A DNA stretch of 64,000 nucleotides, taken from the NCBI GenBank assembly GCA_021774625.1, contig JAJFIV010000001.1:124001-188000 (forward strand). Reading direction: 5' to 3'. The position numbers and the translations under genes were made by a program. Numbering within the stretch: the stretch's first letter is position 1; every line of letters begins with the position of its first letter. A model generated the notes under the pieces. That model searched no databases and was not told where the DNA came from. It saw only the letters and a list, made by a program, of their open reading frames with translations. Shown piece by piece: positions 23,496-56,068 of this stretch. Source of the DNA: Alphaproteobacteria bacterium. Its GTDB lineage: Bacteria > Pseudomonadota > Alphaproteobacteria > Sphingomonadales > JAKSBY01.

Positions 23496-24983
23496 ATGGA
23501 TATTTCGCCGCACCTGCCGGCTTTCGCTGACAGATACGCATCCGGCAAGGCGCAAATTGTTTCGGTCAAACTTGCCGCGGACCTGGAAACGCCGGTTTCG
23601 GTTTATCTCAAACTGACCGGCGGTGCTGATGTGGGTTTTTTGCTGGAATCGGTTGAAGGCGGCGCCAACCGGGGCCGCTATTCCTTCATTGGCATCAGAC
23701 CGGACCTGTTCTGGCGGGCCAACGGCGATCAGGCGGAAACCGCCATGGACCTCAAGGCCGGCTTTCAAAAAGCCGGGACGGATATTTTTACGTCTTTCCG
23801 CGATACCCTGGCCGAATGTCAAATCGACCTGCCGCCGGATGCTCCGCCGATACTGGCAGGGCTTGTCGGTTATATGGGGTATGACATGGTGCGGCAGATG
23901 GAAAGGCTGCCCGCCGCAAAACCCGACCCGTTGGGCGTGCCGGACGCGCTTTTCATGCGGCCCACGGTGATTGCCATCTTCGACAGTGTGGAAGACAGCC
24001 TGACCATCCTGACCCCGGTCTGGCACAAAACCGAGATCACCGCGGAAGACGCCTACGGGCACGCCGCAGCACGCATAGAGGCGGTTCGCAGCGCCCTGGA
24101 CAGCCCCCTGCCCCGGCGCGGCAAGCCTGTGATCCCTGAACGGTTTGCCGAGCCCAGGTCCAACACGCCGCGCGCCGATTATCTCCGGATGGTCGCCCGC
24201 GCCAAAGACTATATTGCCGCCGGCGATATTTTTCAGGTGGTGCTCAGCCAGCGTTTTACGGTTCCGTTCCCGCTGCCGTCCTTCGCCCTTTACCGGTCGC
24301 TGCGGCGGACCAATCCGTCGCCTTATATGTTTTATCTGAATTTTGGCAATTTCGCCGTGGCCGGCTCCAGCCCGGAAATCCTTGTTCGCCTGAATGACGG
24401 CAAAGTGACCGTCCGCCCCATTGCCGGAACCCGGCGGCGCGGGGCAAATTTTGATGAAGACCGGAAAAATGCCGAAGACCTGCTCGCCGATCCCAAGGAA
24501 CTGGCCGAGCATCTGATGCTGGTTGACCTTGGCCGCAACGATGTCGGCCGGGTCGCCATAAAAGGCAGCGTGGAAGTCACGGCGCGCAATATCATCGAAT
24601 ATTATTCCCATGTGATGCATATCGTATCCAACGTCACGGGCGATATCGCGCCGGGTTTCGACGGCGTTGACGCTTTCAAGGCGGGATTTCCCGCCGGCAC
24701 TGTTTCCGGCGCGCCAAAAATCCGCGCCATGGAAATTATTGATGAACTGGAGGCCGACAAACGGGGCATTTATGCCGGCGGGGTCGGCTATTTCGCCTCC
24801 GGCGGCGGGTCGGATACCTGCATTGCGCTGAGGACCGGTATTATCAAGGACGGCATGCTGCATATCCAGGCTGGCGCCGGCATCGTCGCCGACAGCGATC
24901 CGGACAGTGAATATCAGGAATGCCGCCACAAAGCCCAGGCCTTGGTCAAAGCCGCCAAAAACGCCTTCCGTTATATTGATTAA
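23496..24983 (+). CDS. trpE: Anthranilate synthase component I
   Basis: Condenses chorismate with ammonia to anthranilate, the first step of tryptophan synthesis. The 495-residue protein has the chorismate-binding hallmarks PIAGTRRRG near 308, LMLVDLGRNDVGRVA near 340 and AGTVSGAPKIRAMEIIDELE near 400. An N-terminal LLES motif (VGFLLESVEGG) is present, the usual tryptophan feedback site. Its amidotransferase partner trpG lies 2.5 kb downstream beyond two minus-strand genes. Coupled to ppiD; no leader peptide or attenuator seen. Confidence 0.97.
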   Translation: MDISPHLPAFADRYASGKAQIVSVKLAADLETPVSVYLKLTGGADVGFLLESVEGGANRGRYSFIGIRPDLFWRANGDQAETAMDLKAGFQKAGTDIFTSFRDTLAECQIDLPPDAPPILAGLVGYMGYDMVRQMERLPAAKPDPLGVPDALFMRPTVIAIFDSVEDSLTILTPVWHKTEITAEDAYGHAAARIEAVRSALDSPLPRRGKPVIPERFAEPRSNTPRADYLRMVARAKDYIAAGDIFQVVLSQRFTVPFPLPSFALYRSLRRTNPSPYMFYLNFGNFAVAGSSPEILVRLNDGKVTVRPIAGTRRRGANFDEDRKNAEDLLADPKELAEHLMLVDLGRNDVGRVAIKGSVEVTARNIIEYYSHVMHIVSNVTGDIAPGFDGVDAFKAGFPAGTVSGAPKIRAMEIIDELEADKRGIYAGGVGYFASGGGSDTCIALRTGIIKDGMLHIQAGAGIVADSDPDSEYQECRHKAQALVKAAKNAFRYID

Positions 24984-24986
24984 CGG

Positions 24987-25017
24987 AAAAAATAACGGCC
25001 CCGTTTGACGGGGCCGT
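24987..25017 (-). terminator. Intrinsic terminator of the PEP-CTERM-like gene
   Basis: Perfect 10-base stem ACGGCCCCGT (24995-25004) with ACGGGGCCGT (25008-25017) and a 3-base loop. On the minus strand it is followed by TTATTTTTT, a full intrinsic terminator just after the gene at 25043. It may also slow plus-strand transcription leaving trpE. Confidence 0.85.
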
Positions 25018-25042
25018 CAAAGTGTAACTTGAAAAGTCGTTA

Positions 25043-25573
25043 TCAGATTGAGCGTCGGCGTCTGCGCGCAAGGCCGAGACCCATAAGCCCAAAACCGAGG
25101 ATTGCAAGCGCCGCCGGAGCGGGAACGGCGTGCCATTCACCTGCAATGCCAACACCGCCGAAGTCCAGACCGAAGCTGATAAAATCAAGGGGCGCACCAT
25201 TTTGACCGTCCTCGAAAATGATATCAGTGCCGACCAACTGGCCGCCGGCAAATGTCAGGGACGGGAAAAAACCATCGAAGAAATCAGTGTCCATAGTTTG
25301 ATCAAAGCTCGTGTTGCCAACATCGATCATGAGCTCATTGCCGGTACCGTCACCAAACGGGATTTGACCATTCGGATCGCCATTCCAATAGGCCCAGAGA
25401 AAAACCAGATCGCCGACTTCCAGCGCAAAAGGATTGTCGGTATCGGCCTCCGTGATCCAGCCTTCGATATGGAATTCATTATCAAAAATATTGATGGTAT
25501 TGGCACTGGCCACCCCGGAAAAACCAGCAAGCAAGGTAACTGCCAATGCGGCAAACAAAGTCTTGAGTCTCAT
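25043..25573 (-). CDS. Exported protein with PEP-CTERM-like sorting signal
   Basis: 176 residues with an N-terminal signal peptide (cleavage after VASA, about residue 24) and a C-terminal tripartite sorting tail: VPAPAALAI, a hydrophobic helix and GLARRRRRSI. This is the VPxPA/PEP-CTERM class, normally cut and anchored by an exosortase in bacteria that make exopolysaccharide. The middle is acidic and beta-rich and contains no domain I recognise. GAGGGG precedes the ATG and a strong terminator follows the stop, so it is a single-gene unit. No exosortase is in the window. Confidence 0.85.
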   Translation of the reverse strand: MRLKTLFAALAVTLLAGFSGVASANTINIFDNEFHIEGWITEADTDNPFALEVGDLVFLWAYWNGDPNGQIPFGDGTGNELMIDVGNTSFDQTMDTDFFDGFFPSLTFAGGQLVGTDIIFEDGQNGAPLDFISFGLDFGGVGIAGEWHAVPAPAALAILGFGLMGLGLARRRRRSI

Positions 25574-25726
25574 TACTTTTCCCCTCTATGGTTACTTCAT
25601 GGTATTTTCCATCTTCCGAGCAAATACCATGCCAGAAAACTAACCCATTGAATAAATGAGATTTTTATAAATACTTCGAAATGTTGCGGGTAAAAGTGTA
25701 AAGAATTCCGACGGTTTTGCCATTTG

Positions 25727-27316
25727 CTATGGGGCTGCGGCTGCTACGCGCTGAGGTTTGGGCTTGTTCTTAATCAGTTCGGAAAGTGAGACCAGTTCAA
25801 TGCCGCTGGCTTCCAGCCCTTTCGCCCAGTCATGCAGAACATCCATGGTTTCCGGATAGGGATGGCCGATGGCGATCACCTGACCGCGGCGGACCGCAAG
25901 ATGTTCAACAACGGTCAATTGACGGCGAATAGCCGCGGGATTGCGGATATTATCCAGGAAAACATCGCGTTTGGCGTGCGCCATGCCAATCTCGCCGGCG
26001 ATATCCTGACCGACTGTATCCGGACTGGTGCGGGAGTCGAGGAAGTACAGGCCGCGCTCCTGAAGCGCCCTCAGAACCGCCCTCATGTCTTTGGAGTTTT
26101 CTGTAAAGCGGCTGCCCATATGATTATTGACGCCGACAAAGCCGGTAAAGCGGGACAGATTCCAGTCCAGCCGTTCCAGCAGTTGTGTCTTATTTTCGCC
26201 GGTCATCAGAGCCAGCGGACCAGGATCAACACTGGCTTCCTTGGGTTCCATCGGCAAATGGACAATCAGTTCGTGCCCGCCGGTCCGCGCCTGTGCCGTC
26301 TGTTCCTTTAAATCTGGCGCATAGGGCAGAAACGCGAGCGTCACCGCCGCAGGCAGTTCCGCCGCCCGCCGGGTATTTTTCCGGTCCATGCCCAGATCAT
26401 CGATTACGATGGCAATCCGGGCGCTGGGCGCTTGCTTGATTTTCGCGGCCGGCGGCATGATTTTAGCCACCTCTGTTTTGGCCGGCGATGGCGAAATTAC
26501 GGGTTCCGGCAGCTTCACGGGAACCGGCTTCGAGGCCACCGGCACCGGTCTGGCTTCCGCTTTCCGCCAAACGGGCATGGCCGGAATCGTCACCTTTTCG
26601 GCAAAGACAATGGCACGGCTTTCCGACGCCCGGTCCGGCAGATGCGTGAAAAGGACAGTACCTGAAAGGCTGACCAGCCCGGCATAGGCGCCATACGCCG
26701 CTAGGCGCAGAGCCGGTTTTACCCCGCTGCCGACAAGCTGCCGGAAGCCCCGCCAAAACGCGACAAGGCCGTCCTGAAAGCGCTGCCAGAGCACAGCAAG
26801 ACTGTCCTGAAAATTCTCCCAAAACGTAATAATGCCGTGCTGAAAGCGTCGCCCATATGTCACAATGCCGGACGAAAAGCGTAGAAGAAATGCACCAAGG
26901 CTGTGCTGAAATCGCCGCCAGAGCACAACAAGATTGTTTTGAAAGCACAAAATTTTGCGCCCTTGCCGTTTCACGGCATTTTGCGCGCGCCTGCGCCCGG
27001 CGGATATCATTGCCGTCACGACCGGCCATAAGGGCTTGCGGGCAGGTTTTGTTTTTTTTGTTTTTGCAGGGAGAGGGGGCGCAGCAACCACTTTGGCGGG
27101 CGCTTTCACTTTGGGGAGCGTTTCGCCCGCTGTTTTTTTCAGAATGGCCGCCCTGCGGGATTGTGTCCGGGCCGCAGGCTGTACGGGGATTGTTTCGGCG
27201 GCACCGGCGTCAATTGCCGCCCGCATTTCCAGGTCCAGAAGACTTGGCGTCCTGAACTGTTTTTTTGTTTTTGCCCGCACCACTGATGCCCTACATTTGG
27301 CCGCCTGAATTTCCAT
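25727..27316 (-). CDS. Divergent polysaccharide deacetylase with N-terminal repeat region
   Basis: 529 residues. The C-terminal half (from about 285) is a divergent polysaccharide deacetylase domain of the YibQ type: IAIVIDDLGMDRKNTRRA, LIVHLPMEPKEA, NNHMGSRFTE and GHPYPETMDVL. Ahead of it come a basic N-terminus, six tandem 11-residue repeats at about 127-192, a membrane helix near 197-220 and a Pro/Ala-rich linker. The deacetylase would act in the periplasm. Family members are often next to the carboxyl-terminal protease gene, but not here. The repeats are unusual for the family. I chose ATG 27316 over the GTG at 27328. Confidence 0.86.
   Translation of the reverse strand: MEIQAAKCRASVVRAKTKKQFRTPSLLDLEMRAAIDAGAAETIPVQPAARTQSRRAAILKKTAGETLPKVKAPAKVVAAPPLPAKTKKTKPARKPLWPVVTAMISAGRRRAQNAVKRQGRKILCFQNNLVVLWRRFQHSLGAFLLRFSSGIVTYGRRFQHGIITFWENFQDSLAVLWQRFQDGLVAFWRGFRQLVGSGVKPALRLAAYGAYAGLVSLSGTVLFTHLPDRASESRAIVFAEKVTIPAMPVWRKAEARPVPVASKPVPVKLPEPVISPSPAKTEVAKIMPPAAKIKQAPSARIAIVIDDLGMDRKNTRRAAELPAAVTLAFLPYAPDLKEQTAQARTGGHELIVHLPMEPKEASVDPGPLALMTGENKTQLLERLDWNLSRFTGFVGVNNHMGSRFTENSKDMRAVLRALQERGLYFLDSRTSPDTVGQDIAGEIGMAHAKRDVFLDNIRNPAAIRRQLTVVEHLAVRRGQVIAIGHPYPETMDVLHDWAKGLEASGIELVSLSELIKNKPKPQRVAAAAP
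26741..26938 (-). repeat. Six tandem 33-base units encoding 11-residue repeats
   Basis: The units read NNLVVLWRRFQ, HSLGAFLLRFS, SGIVTYGRRFQ, HGIITFWENFQ, DSLAVLWQRFQ and DGLVAFWRGFR. The shared pattern is polar-polar-Leu/Ile-x-x-aromatic-Trp-x-Arg-Phe-Gln. Related DNA blocks such as CTGAAAGCG recur with the same 33-base period, pointing to recent duplication. An 11-residue period can form an amphipathic helix or hendecad coiled coil. The block lies just before a membrane helix. Confidence 0.9.
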
Positions 27317-27470
27317 GCTTGTATACACGCAATCATATAGAGGAAAAACGGCAAGATTCGGTTAATGATGGTTAGATGCTTTTTATTTGCGCCCTTACCG
27401 CCTAAACTCGCTCGCGATTCGTTTGATATAAATTAATATAAAACATTAATAATATTCGGTAACTATTTGA

Positions 27471-28055
27471 ATGTACATGCTAATTGATAGTTATGATAGC
27501 TTCACCTATAACCTGTTCCATTATTTCCAGGAATTGGGCGCCGATGTGCTTGTCGTGCGCAACGATCAGATCACTGTGGATGAGGTTATGGCCCGCGCGC
27601 CGGAAGGCATCATCCTGTCTCCCGGGCCCGGCAGACCGGACAATGCCGGGATATTGCCCGGACTGATCCCTGCGGCAGCGGGTAAAATCCCCGTTCTCGG
27701 CGTCTGTCTCGGTCATCAGGCCATGGCGCAGGCATTCGGCGGCAGGATCATCCGCGCCCCGCAACTGATGCACGGCAAGACCAGCGCCATTTATCATACC
27801 GGCGCGAGCATATTTCAGGGCCTTCCGTCCCCTTACACCGCCACCCGTTATCATTCGCTGATTGTGGAAAGGGAAAGCCTGCCCGCGTGTTTTGACGTGA
27901 CGGCGGAAACCGAAGACGGCGTTATCATGGGGATAGCCCACCGGGATTACCCGCTTTATGGTGTTCAGTTCCATCCCGAGAGCATTGCGACCGAACACGG
28001 TCACGCCCTTTTAGAGAATTTTCTAAAACTCAGCAGACAGGATATCGCCGCATGA
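27471..28055 (+). CDS. trpG: Anthranilate synthase component II (glutamine amidotransferase)
   Basis: 194 residues supplying ammonia to TrpE. The class I amidotransferase triad is complete: Cys in [15 protein letters not shown] near 80, and the His-Glu pair in [13 protein letters not shown] near 170. The start is ATG 27471 (a second ATG lies two codons in); no clear ribosome site is visible in the AT-rich upstream region. It opens the trpGDC-moaC-moeA run, whose genes overlap or nearly touch. Confidence 0.95.
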
Positions 28056-53650: not shown

Positions 53651-56068
53651 ATGTCTACGAGAATGTTGATCGATGCGCGCCATGTGGAAGAAACGCGCGT
53701 CACCATTATCCGGGGTAATCGCGTTGAAGAATTTGATTATGAATCCGCTCATAAGCAGCAGATCAAGAGCAATGTCTATCTGGCTAAAATCACGCGGGTA
53801 GAACCGTCGTTGCAGGCCGCCTTTGTCGATTATGGCGGAAACCGTCACGGTTTTCTTGCTTTCAGCGAAATCCATCCGGATTATTACCAGATTCCAACCG
53901 CCGACCGCGAAGCCCTGCTTGCGGAAGAGGCGGAAGTCTCCCGCAATGTCGATGACATGGCCGAAGAAGTGCCGGAGGAGACAGATGAGGCGTCATCAGA
54001 AGAAAATGGGGATGATGAGGATGGGCCGCAAAGCCGGGTCGAGCAGATTGCCGGAGAAGATGAGATCGAGGAAAGCATCCGCCGCAACAAATTGAGAAAT
54101 CTCCGGCGGCGCTATAAAATTCAGGAAGTCATCAAACGCCGCCAGATCATGCTGGTTCAGGTGGTTAAGGAGGAACGCGGCACCAAGGGCGCAGCTCTGA
54201 CCACCTATCTTTCGCTCCCCGGCCGCTATTGCGTTCTGATGCCCAACACCACACATGGCGGCGGCATCAGCCGTAAAATCGCCTCGCCGGCGGACCGCAA
54301 ACGCCTGAAAGGCATCATCCAGTCGCTTGAAATTCCGGACGGCATGGGCTGTATTGTCCGCACAGCCGGCGCCAACCATACCAAGGCGGAAATCAAGCGC
54401 GACTATGATTATCTGCTACGGCAATGGGAAGATATCCGCGAACTGACGCTGAAATCCGTTGCCCCCACCCTGATTTATGAAGAAGGCAATCTGATCAGGC
54501 GTTCGATCCGCGATCAATATACCAAGGAGGTCGATGAAATTCTGGTCGAAGGCGAAGAAGGCTATCGCCATGCCAAGGATTTTATGAAACTGCTGATCCC
54601 GAGCCATGCCAAAAAGATCAAGCAGTATAAGGATAAGACCCCGCTTTTTCATCGCTACCAGGTGGAAAGCCAGCTGGATTCCATGTATTCGCCCGAGGTT
54701 TCCCTGAAATCCGGCGGCTATATCGTGATCAACCCGACCGAAGCGCTTGTTTCCATCGATGTCAACTCCGGCAAGGCGACCAAGGAGCATAATATCGAGG
54801 AAACGGCGCTGAACACCAATCTGGAAGCCGCTGACGAAATTGCCCGCCAATTGCGGCTGCGCGATATGGCCGGCCTGATCGTTATCGACTTTATCGATAT
54901 GGAATACCGCAACAATAACCGCACGGTCGAGCGCCGCATGAAGGAAGCCCTGAAGAATGACAGGGCCCGCATCCAACTGGGACGGATCAGTTCGTTCGGT
55001 CTGATGGAAATGTCCCGCCAGCGCCTGCGCCCCGGGATCCTCGAAGCCAGCACCTCCCTGTGCAAAACCTGCCATGGCACCGGGCGGGTCCGCTCCATCG
55101 AATCCTTCGTCCTGCAAATTCTCAGGCTGATTGAAGAAGAATGCATCCGTGATCAGGTGCCTTATTTATTTGTGGCGCTGCCAAGCGACGCGGCGATTTA
55201 TATTCTGAATAAAAAACGCTCCAGTCTCACGGATATTGAACAGCGTTATAGCACCAATATCGAGGTGTCTGCCCGGGACGATCTGATGGCGCCGCAGCAC
55301 GAAATACGCAGCGGGACCAGCGCCGCGGCAGAAGACAGCACGAAAAGAGAGGCCCCGAAACAGACCGCAAAGCCCCAAAGAAAAGAACAGGACGGGGGCC
55401 AGAAGCCCCGGCGCAAACGCGGCGGGCGCAGACGGGACGAGCAAAAAACCAATGGCGGTGATGCTCAGCAAGCCCAGGCTGAAACCGGCCCGCCGTCCCA
55501 GGAAAACAAGCCGGGCGATCAGCAGGCCAGAAAACCGGGCGGTGACAGTGCCGACGGTGTGAAAAAGAGGCGCCGCCGCGGCCGCCGCGGCGGCCGTAAA
55601 CAGAATACCGGCGATCAGACTCAGAATCAGACCGCGAACGCTGAAACGCCACAGGGTGAAGGAAAGCAGGGTGAAGGAAAGCAGAGCCCGGCAGCCGAGC
55701 CGCACGCAGCGGCAAAACCGCACAATGGCGAAAAACCCGCGGACACCAGACCTGTTGAGGCAAAAAGCGCGGACACAGCTGGCAAGGCCGGGGAAAAAAC
55801 CGGACAGCCGCGCCGTCGCCAACCCCGCCGCCGGACCCCAAAGGCTGAAACCAATGGCAGTGCGGCGAAGGCGGCGGCTGAACCAAAAACGCCTCCAGCT
55901 TCCGTAAAACCCGGTAAAACCGAGGAAAAAAGTAAGACAACCGCAACGAAAGATGTCGAAAAACCTGCCCGGGCCGCTTCCGAAAAAGCCGGGATGCCGG
56001 CGCCGCAAGATGCACCGGCAGGGCCCAAAAAAGAGCGCAAAGGCTGGTGGCAGCGGCCTTTTGGTTAG
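53651..56068 (+). CDS. rne: Ribonuclease E
   Basis: Central endoribonuclease for mRNA decay and rRNA/tRNA processing. 805 residues from ATG 53651. S1 RNA-binding domain at about 35-170 (NVYLAKITRVEPSLQAAFVDYG) is split by an acidic insert (EEVPEETDEASSEENGDDED), typical of alphaproteobacteria. The catalytic aspartates are in SIDVNSGKATKEHN near 370 and VIDFIDMEYRNN near 414, and the zinc-link CKTCHGTGR near 470 joins the dimer. From about 555 on it is disordered, with Arg-rich blocks (KPRRKRGGRRR, KKRRRRGRRGG) and an aromatic end (WWQRPFG) for RNA and partner binding. Confidence 0.96.
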   Translation: MSTRMLIDARHVEETRVTIIRGNRVEEFDYESAHKQQIKSNVYLAKITRVEPSLQAAFVDYGGNRHGFLAFSEIHPDYYQIPTADREALLAEEAEVSRNVDDMAEEVPEETDEASSEENGDDEDGPQSRVEQIAGEDEIEESIRRNKLRNLRRRYKIQEVIKRRQIMLVQVVKEERGTKGAALTTYLSLPGRYCVLMPNTTHGGGISRKIASPADRKRLKGIIQSLEIPDGMGCIVRTAGANHTKAEIKRDYDYLLRQWEDIRELTLKSVAPTLIYEEGNLIRRSIRDQYTKEVDEILVEGEEGYRHAKDFMKLLIPSHAKKIKQYKDKTPLFHRYQVESQLDSMYSPEVSLKSGGYIVINPTEALVSIDVNSGKATKEHNIEETALNTNLEAADEIARQLRLRDMAGLIVIDFIDMEYRNNNRTVERRMKEALKNDRARIQLGRISSFGLMEMSRQRLRPGILEASTSLCKTCHGTGRVRSIESFVLQILRLIEEECIRDQVPYLFVALPSDAAIYILNKKRSSLTDIEQRYSTNIEVSARDDLMAPQHEIRSGTSAAAEDSTKREAPKQTAKPQRKEQDGGQKPRRKRGGRRRDEQKTNGGDAQQAQAETGPPSQENKPGDQQARKPGGDSADGVKKRRRRGRRGGRKQNTGDQTQNQTANAETPQGEGKQGEGKQSPAAEPHAAAKPHNGEKPADTRPVEAKSADTAGKAGEKTGQPRRRQPRRRTPKAETNGSAAKAAAEPKTPPASVKPGKTEEKSKTTATKDVEKPARAASEKAGMPAPQDAPAGPKKERKGWWQRPFG

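Follow-up and report, generated by a model that had tools for sequence, protein, structure and literature searches.

A predicted amphipathic helix of tandem 11-residue units in an SddA-like deacetylase of an alphaproteobacterium

In Escherichia coli, YibQ deacetylates denuded peptidoglycan strands and has been renamed SddA; its zinc ligands are D31, D32, H78, and H123 (PMC12440217). A catalytically active SddA variant that fails to localize to the septum causes no chaining, which indicates that placement matters for the E. coli enzyme (PMC12440217). The same source already noted one inactive envC-linked protein, ATU2773. Known 11-mer helices, such as those of perilipin 4 and alpha-synuclein, bind lipid surfaces (PMC5889406).

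The window analyzed here, a stretch of 64,000 nucleotides from an alphaproteobacterial genome, encodes a protein of the divergent polysaccharide deacetylase family that has an array of short tandem repeats ahead of a probable membrane helix (Table 1). The preliminary description had named it a YibQ-like deacetylase, and this identity holds: aa 307-518 match Pfam PF04748 with 273.6 bits, against a curated cut-off of 27.5. Foldseek finds 2QV5 (E 4.5e-22) and 2NLY (E 1.0e-16), with TM values by target of 0.86 and 0.91; these are the closest solved structures by sequence and by fold. Residues D310, D311, H357, and H403 are invariant in alignments of 12 and of 30 sequences. Since the four zinc ligands of SddA are present, the protein would be expected to catalyze SddA-type deacetylation, with both substrate and activity predicted from sequence.

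Table 1. Features of the deacetylase gene and its product, in window coordinates
Feature	Position	Strand	Basis or remark
PF04748 gene (divergent polysaccharide deacetylase, YibQ/SddA-like), 533 aa from GTG; alternative ATG at 27316	25727..27328	-	
Basic N-terminal region, aa 1-100, mostly low confidence	27029..27328	-	Charge and pLDDT
Predicted continuous helix holding the repeats, aa 101-200	26729..27028	-	AF2 full-length model; two helices when the fragment is folded alone
Unit 1, FQNNLVVLWRR	26912..26944	-	
Unit 2, FQHSLGAFLLR	26879..26911	-	
Unit 3, FSSGIVTYGRR	26846..26878	-	Gly replaces Trp
Unit 4, FQHGIITFWEN	26813..26845	-	
Unit 5, FQDSLAVLWQR	26780..26812	-	
Unit 6, FQDGLVAFWRG	26747..26779	-	
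Break between helices, aa 201-204	26717..26728	-	AF2 model
Weakly hydrophobic helix at aa 205-229, probably the single membrane span	26642..26716	-	Hydropathy and AF2 model
PF04748 catalytic domain, aa 307-518	25775..26410	-	Pfam E 9.5e-82, AF2 model, Foldseek
Zinc ligands D310, D311 (SddA D31, D32)	26396..26401	-	Alignments; ligand identity from PMC12440217
Zinc ligand H357 (SddA H78)	26258..26260	-	Alignments; ligand identity from PMC12440217
Zinc ligand H403 (SddA H123)	26120..26122	-	Alignments; ligand identity from PMC12440217

Six 11-residue units follow one another directly at aa 129-194 (26944..26747 of the window, on the minus strand) and make up the array, in a register that starts on Phe. 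The block was originally drawn at 26741..26938, which is exactly six 11-codon units in its own register (aa 131-196). The repeats themselves hold up, but the consensus given at that time was drawn too tightly: Phe is present in 6/6 units and Trp in only 4/6, 3/6 unit ends carry Arg-Phe-Gln, and the position described as aromatic reads L, F, Y, F, L, F.

Residue identity within the block is 0.322 at lag 11, a value reached by none of 20000 composition shuffles (lags 5-24 scanned), and base identity at lag 33 is 0.588, reached by none of 20000 codon shuffles. The 33-base units have a mean pairwise identity of 0.602, against 0.505 expected under synonymous resampling that followed the codon usage of ten genes in the window (0/2000 as high). 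Residues repeated at lag 11 use the same codon in 13 of 16 cases, against 7.5 expected (Trp and Met excluded). Units 1 and 5 are identical at 27/33 bases, and the least similar pair has 14/33 in common. The preliminary description had called the 33-base blocks related; their likeness exceeds what the encoded residues demand, so the array was built by tandem duplication of a 33-base unit. At scores of at least 30, Tandem Repeats Finder leaves the array unlisted, which shows it to be diverged. Elsewhere in the window, there is a perfect 15-base tandem repeat, CAGGGTGAAGGAAAG, with 2.2 copies (55652..55684).

Hydrophobicity in the block has one dominant period, at 98.5 degrees (3.65 residues), with a power of 15.3 against a mean maximum of 4.4 in shuffles (0/2000 reach it); there is no such hydrophobic period in the 128 residues preceding the block. 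The hydrophobic moment is 0.52 per residue at 98.18 degrees, and the mean hydrophobicity is 0.61. On an 11/3 wheel, F lies at 0 degrees, L/I at 33, L/F/Y at 327, and W at 65, forming one stripe, and the charged residues lie at 164-262 degrees. Across the six units these face columns read FFFFFF, LLIILL, LFYFLF, and WLGWWW. The amphipathic period first proposed for the repeats is thus a strong helical one with a single hydrophobic face. pN is 0.24 in the four face columns against 0.44 in the other seven, and 9 of 330 four-column choices are equally low. pS is also lower in the face columns (0.37 vs 0.56 elsewhere), which leaves the pN contrast no more than suggestive of selection on the face.

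Structure prediction, proposed earlier as a check on the block, places the repeats in a single helix. The full-length AlphaFold (AF2) model, made with 30 sequences, has a continuous helix at aa 101-200 (block pLDDT 63-82), a break at aa 201-204, a second helix at aa 205-229, and a catalytic domain with pLDDT 92-98. Folded alone, the fragment gives helices at aa 101-157, 162-200, and 205-228 with low confidence (mean pLDDT 58.8), and the repeat helix is interrupted at aa 158-161, within unit 3. The block helix itself is accordingly a predicted one. The arrangement around it is as originally described, with a basic N-terminus before the repeats (net charge +23 across aa 1-128; pLDDT below 50 across aa 40-101 in the AF2 model) and a membrane helix after them, which is weak (best 19-residue Kyte-Doolittle mean 1.45).

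On balance we lean towards a cytoplasmic, juxtamembrane amphipathic helix that would lie on the inner membrane and help to anchor or place the periplasmic enzyme. Eleven residues correspond to three helical turns, so that F, L/I, L/F/Y, and W would be kept on one stripe, about 100 angstroms long. By the positive-inside rule a basic flank stays on the cytoplasmic side, and the basic flank before the repeats would put the helix there. It would most likely lie flat against the inner face of the cytoplasmic membrane, beside the weak membrane anchor. The surroundings of units 4-5 are about neutral or negative in charge (18-mer scores -0.12 to 0.5), and lipid binding there would therefore rest on the hydrophobic residues. 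The helix may thereby hold the periplasmic domain, or concentrate it, at certain sites on the membrane, of which the division site is a plausible one; the domain is a putative zinc-dependent enzyme of the SddA kind that would deacetylate the glycan strands of peptidoglycan. Septal placement is carried over by analogy from E. coli SddA and is plausible for the window protein. In this account the topology, the membrane binding, the placement, and the substrate are all what we infer.

The 11-residue period also matches a hendecad, a right-handed coiled coil, through which the enzyme could dimerize or form larger oligomers on the cytoplasmic side, directly beneath the membrane. The core positions of a hendecad are a, d, e, and h, and L5, L/F8, W9, and F1 are readable as such a core; the single long helix predicted by AF2 is consistent with this as well. 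However, the face is aromatic-rich (F 6/6, W 4/6), which is unusual in a coiled-coil core and common at membrane surfaces. We consider a coiled coil possible, with a rather low probability, and it stays a real rival because the face columns also fit its core.

Comparison with relatives bears on whether the array matters at all. At E 1e-3 the protein has matches in 45 of 60 genomes (its own among the 60), and at 1e-40 it has matches in 78 of 296 genomes of the order and 201 of 385 of the class. We read the N-termini of the 29 best-ranked loci of the 60-genome search besides the window's own, of 16 of 20 additional stretches (the other 4 were not recognized by the motif script), and of 20 more, comprising 19 with open frames of at least 500 aa among the matches listed in the class search, plus G389. 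Another 80 named loci were added from a contig scan with conserved catalytic patterns; these patterns contain a zinc-ligand His, and the named-scan loci are therefore biased towards intact zinc sites. In total 134 distinct ORFs were scored (135 rows, with the window twice), including envC-locus copies and dropping ORFs with unrecognized motifs.

The median pre-membrane length among the 134 distinct ORFs is 31 aa, against 208 in the window protein, where each ORF was started at the first ATG or GTG of its open frame, so that the lengths are upper bounds. Homologues of equal length without repeats, raised in the preliminary description as the case that would make the pattern a chance one, are thus not what we find; most are much shorter before the membrane helix. 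The best 60-residue power at 96-101 degrees is 15.3 in the window, 10.9 in genome G027, 9.7 in G037, 9.0 in G535, and 5.0 in the next of the 134. Besides the window, only G027 and G037 have long pre-membrane stretches that we accept as amphipathic. The G535 ORF (L062) passes the periodicity threshold but contains no 11-residue repeat (best lag-11 0.12). The long region before the membrane helix of G015 shows no amphipathicity at 98-100 degrees, and in G021 the long region stands after the membrane helix; we rejected all three as further cases. Judged by these N-termini, the repeat block is missing from most orthologues. The earlier view that YibQ-like deacetylases have no such block fits most relatives, but the family is not wholly free of one, as G037 and G027 have longer amphipathic pre-membrane regions.

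Other kinds of repeats occur in PF04748 ORFs. In the G021 ORF (L051), a region of about 390 aa that lies after the membrane helix and ahead of the catalytic domain contains imperfect internal repeats, and a G009 ORF (L024) has RQDNRP four times in tandem directly before the catalytic domain. In three genomes (L061, L066, and L067 in G455, G327, and G552), the basic N-terminus of the orthologue contains Ala/Lys/Ser-rich low-complexity repeats whose length differs among the three.

A search with the repeat in its own genome gives one match, the array itself. Among 296 genomes of the order, 26, one of which is the genome of the window, show matches at E <= 0.1, and the best other match has E 0.0017 (38% over 40 aa). 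This count is about the chance expectation for 296 genomes, and we rejected the idea of a mobile or shared module. Matches to plasmids (3 records at E 0.2-0.5) and to PDB sequences (one match, E 1.5) are at chance level; PDB sequences are the set in which homology to 11-mer proteins was sought.

The G037 orthologue (L050 5098..7353, minus strand) is found at the trp locus, like the window gene. Its amphipathic pre-membrane region is about 380 aa long, with a decayed 11-residue/33-base periodicity. Five successive 90-residue stretches have their maxima at 98-100 degrees, and for none of them do more than 6/1000 shuffles reach the observed peak. Across aa 51-420, lags of 11 residues (z 3.6) and 33 bases (z 2.9) stand out most strongly, relative to other lags of its own sequence. 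To judge by these periods, the region looks like an older, decayed 11-residue array. We found no relative of this N-terminal region in the other 28 genomes of its family, and G037 is not among the matches listed for the window repeat in the order. The G027 pre-membrane region is amphipathic in parts, and its top lag is 22 residues/66 bases (z 2.8, 2.1), not 11.

On a quick tree of 85 domains, in which several forks are weak, the window, G027/G015, and G037 are drawn apart. The tree label "ext" was also given to G015, with its non-amphipathic region, and the group table gives 1 change for "ext" only because it leaves ungrouped rows uncounted. The scattered carriers would fit separate gains of the amphipathic region; repeated loss may be the alternative.

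These comparisons weigh on the possibility that the array is an expanded juxtamembrane linker of no selective importance, which looks amphipathic because one chance unit was copied. The clear duplication at the DNA level agrees with such an expansion, as do the absence of the array from most orthologues and order-wide matches that are no more than chance. However, the units have diverged, down to the 14 shared bases of the least similar pair, and have kept their hydrophobic face, and there is a similar, seemingly older 11-residue region at the corresponding place in G037, as well as an amphipathic helix in G027. The kept face and the G037 case make neutral expansion less likely, and we regard it as improbable. 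That the block is threaded through the membrane as hairpins, instead of lying on its surface, is very hard to credit: its mean hydrophobicity is close to the value for the membrane helix after it, but charged residues occur at least every 11 residues, polar residues lie on one face, and the repeats contain no uncharged run of 19 residues.

Around the gene, the plus strand carries a PpiD-like gene and trpE, followed on the minus strand by a PEP-CTERM-like gene and the PF04748 gene, and then on the plus strand by trpG, trpD, trpC, moaC, moeA, and lexA. The PF04748 gene thus has trpE on one side and trpG on the other, both on the strand opposite to its own (window 23496..28055), and is in no operon with envC. 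The arrangement recurs in many relatives, which supports orthology. The small protein encoded between trpE and the deacetylase gene (25043..25573, minus strand) has a PEP-CTERM-like end, at 19.9 bits against a Pfam cut-off of 20.7.

The genome contains two matches to the protein at E 1e-3. The second (L032 3178..4305, G000:C32) is in an operon with the order envC-ctpA-X-rppH, in which we take the neighbors to be homologues of these genes from their sequences and their likeness across loci, and not from a family scan. This copy has V, G, M, and D at the four ligand positions, and all four zinc ligands are gone. The other genome compared from the window's family, G001, has an envC-type copy as its sole match at E 1e-3. 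There are 29 loci with envC/ctpA/rppH neighbors, 25 of them distinct. H357 is missing in 23/23 distinct copies of this kind from whole-genome searches, all from the window's order, and 0/23 have all four ligands; on the quick tree these copies (23 of the 85 domains) separate from the rest. Two envC-linked copies from the named scan (L143 and L151, both in records titled Deltaproteobacteria) have an intact zinc site.

The zinc site is also intact in 117/117 loci with trp or ppiD neighbors (106 distinct) and in 30/30 loci with neither kind of neighbor in view (28 distinct); 56 of the 106 and 16 of the 28 distinct loci come only from the scan with ligand-His patterns, and most of the rest are best matches to a query whose site is intact; the intact counts are therefore biased. 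PMC12440217 raised the question of a homologue that is linked to envC and has no zinc ligands; the presence of a zinc-intact second copy at the trp locus in many of the genomes examined bears on it.

Because the zinc site is gone from the envC-linked copy, the PF04748 protein of the trp locus may be the working glycan-strand deacetylase of these bacteria. In a joint reading that we put forward as speculative, several lineages would independently have gained a cytoplasmic, amphipathic 11-residue array. By sensing or binding the inner membrane, the array would place this periplasmic enzyme from across the membrane, and its length would determine how strong the placement is. If this is true, a periplasmic wall enzyme would be placed by a helix across the membrane, and the length of the array would be a simple dial.

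The window protein has PF04748, the four zinc ligands, and the predicted periplasmic location of the domain in common with SddA, the septal denuded-strand deacetylase (PMC12440217). SddA has a signal peptide and is encoded in the envC operon, and the available parts of that report describe no such helix. Unlike SddA, the window protein has a long basic region, predicted to be cytoplasmic, an 11-residue array, and a membrane helix, and its gene is located between trpE and trpG. ATU2773 (2QV5) is the closest solved structure to the window protein by sequence and fold. PMC12440217 describes it as an envC-operon protein without the zinc ligands; its counterpart here is the other copy in the genome and not the window gene. 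The G037 orthologue has the same trp locus and domain and an 11-residue amphipathic pre-membrane region, which differs in its length of about 380 aa and its strongly decayed repeats.

Perilipins and alpha-synuclein resemble the window protein in having tandem 11-residue units that form a 3-11 helix with one hydrophobic face, a likeness of working and not of membership; perilipin 4 is weakly hydrophobic and very long (PMC5889406). The window repeats have the continuous hydrophobic stripe at the 3-11 period that characterizes 11-mer helices, and would by this likeness bind lipid. Unlike those of the perilipin and synuclein kind, the units studied here are bacterial, fewer, and tethered to a membrane helix, and their hydrophobicity and aromatic content are far higher. 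We found no report of a PF04748 enzyme joined to an 11-mer lipid-surface helix in the open-access literature, of which our coverage is incomplete. The enzyme family is known, and so is this kind of lipid-surface repeat; the reading of the array as a membrane-surface helix is plausible but unproved. The window protein would bring together a peptidoglycan-deacetylase family and an 11-mer lipid-surface helix in one protein.
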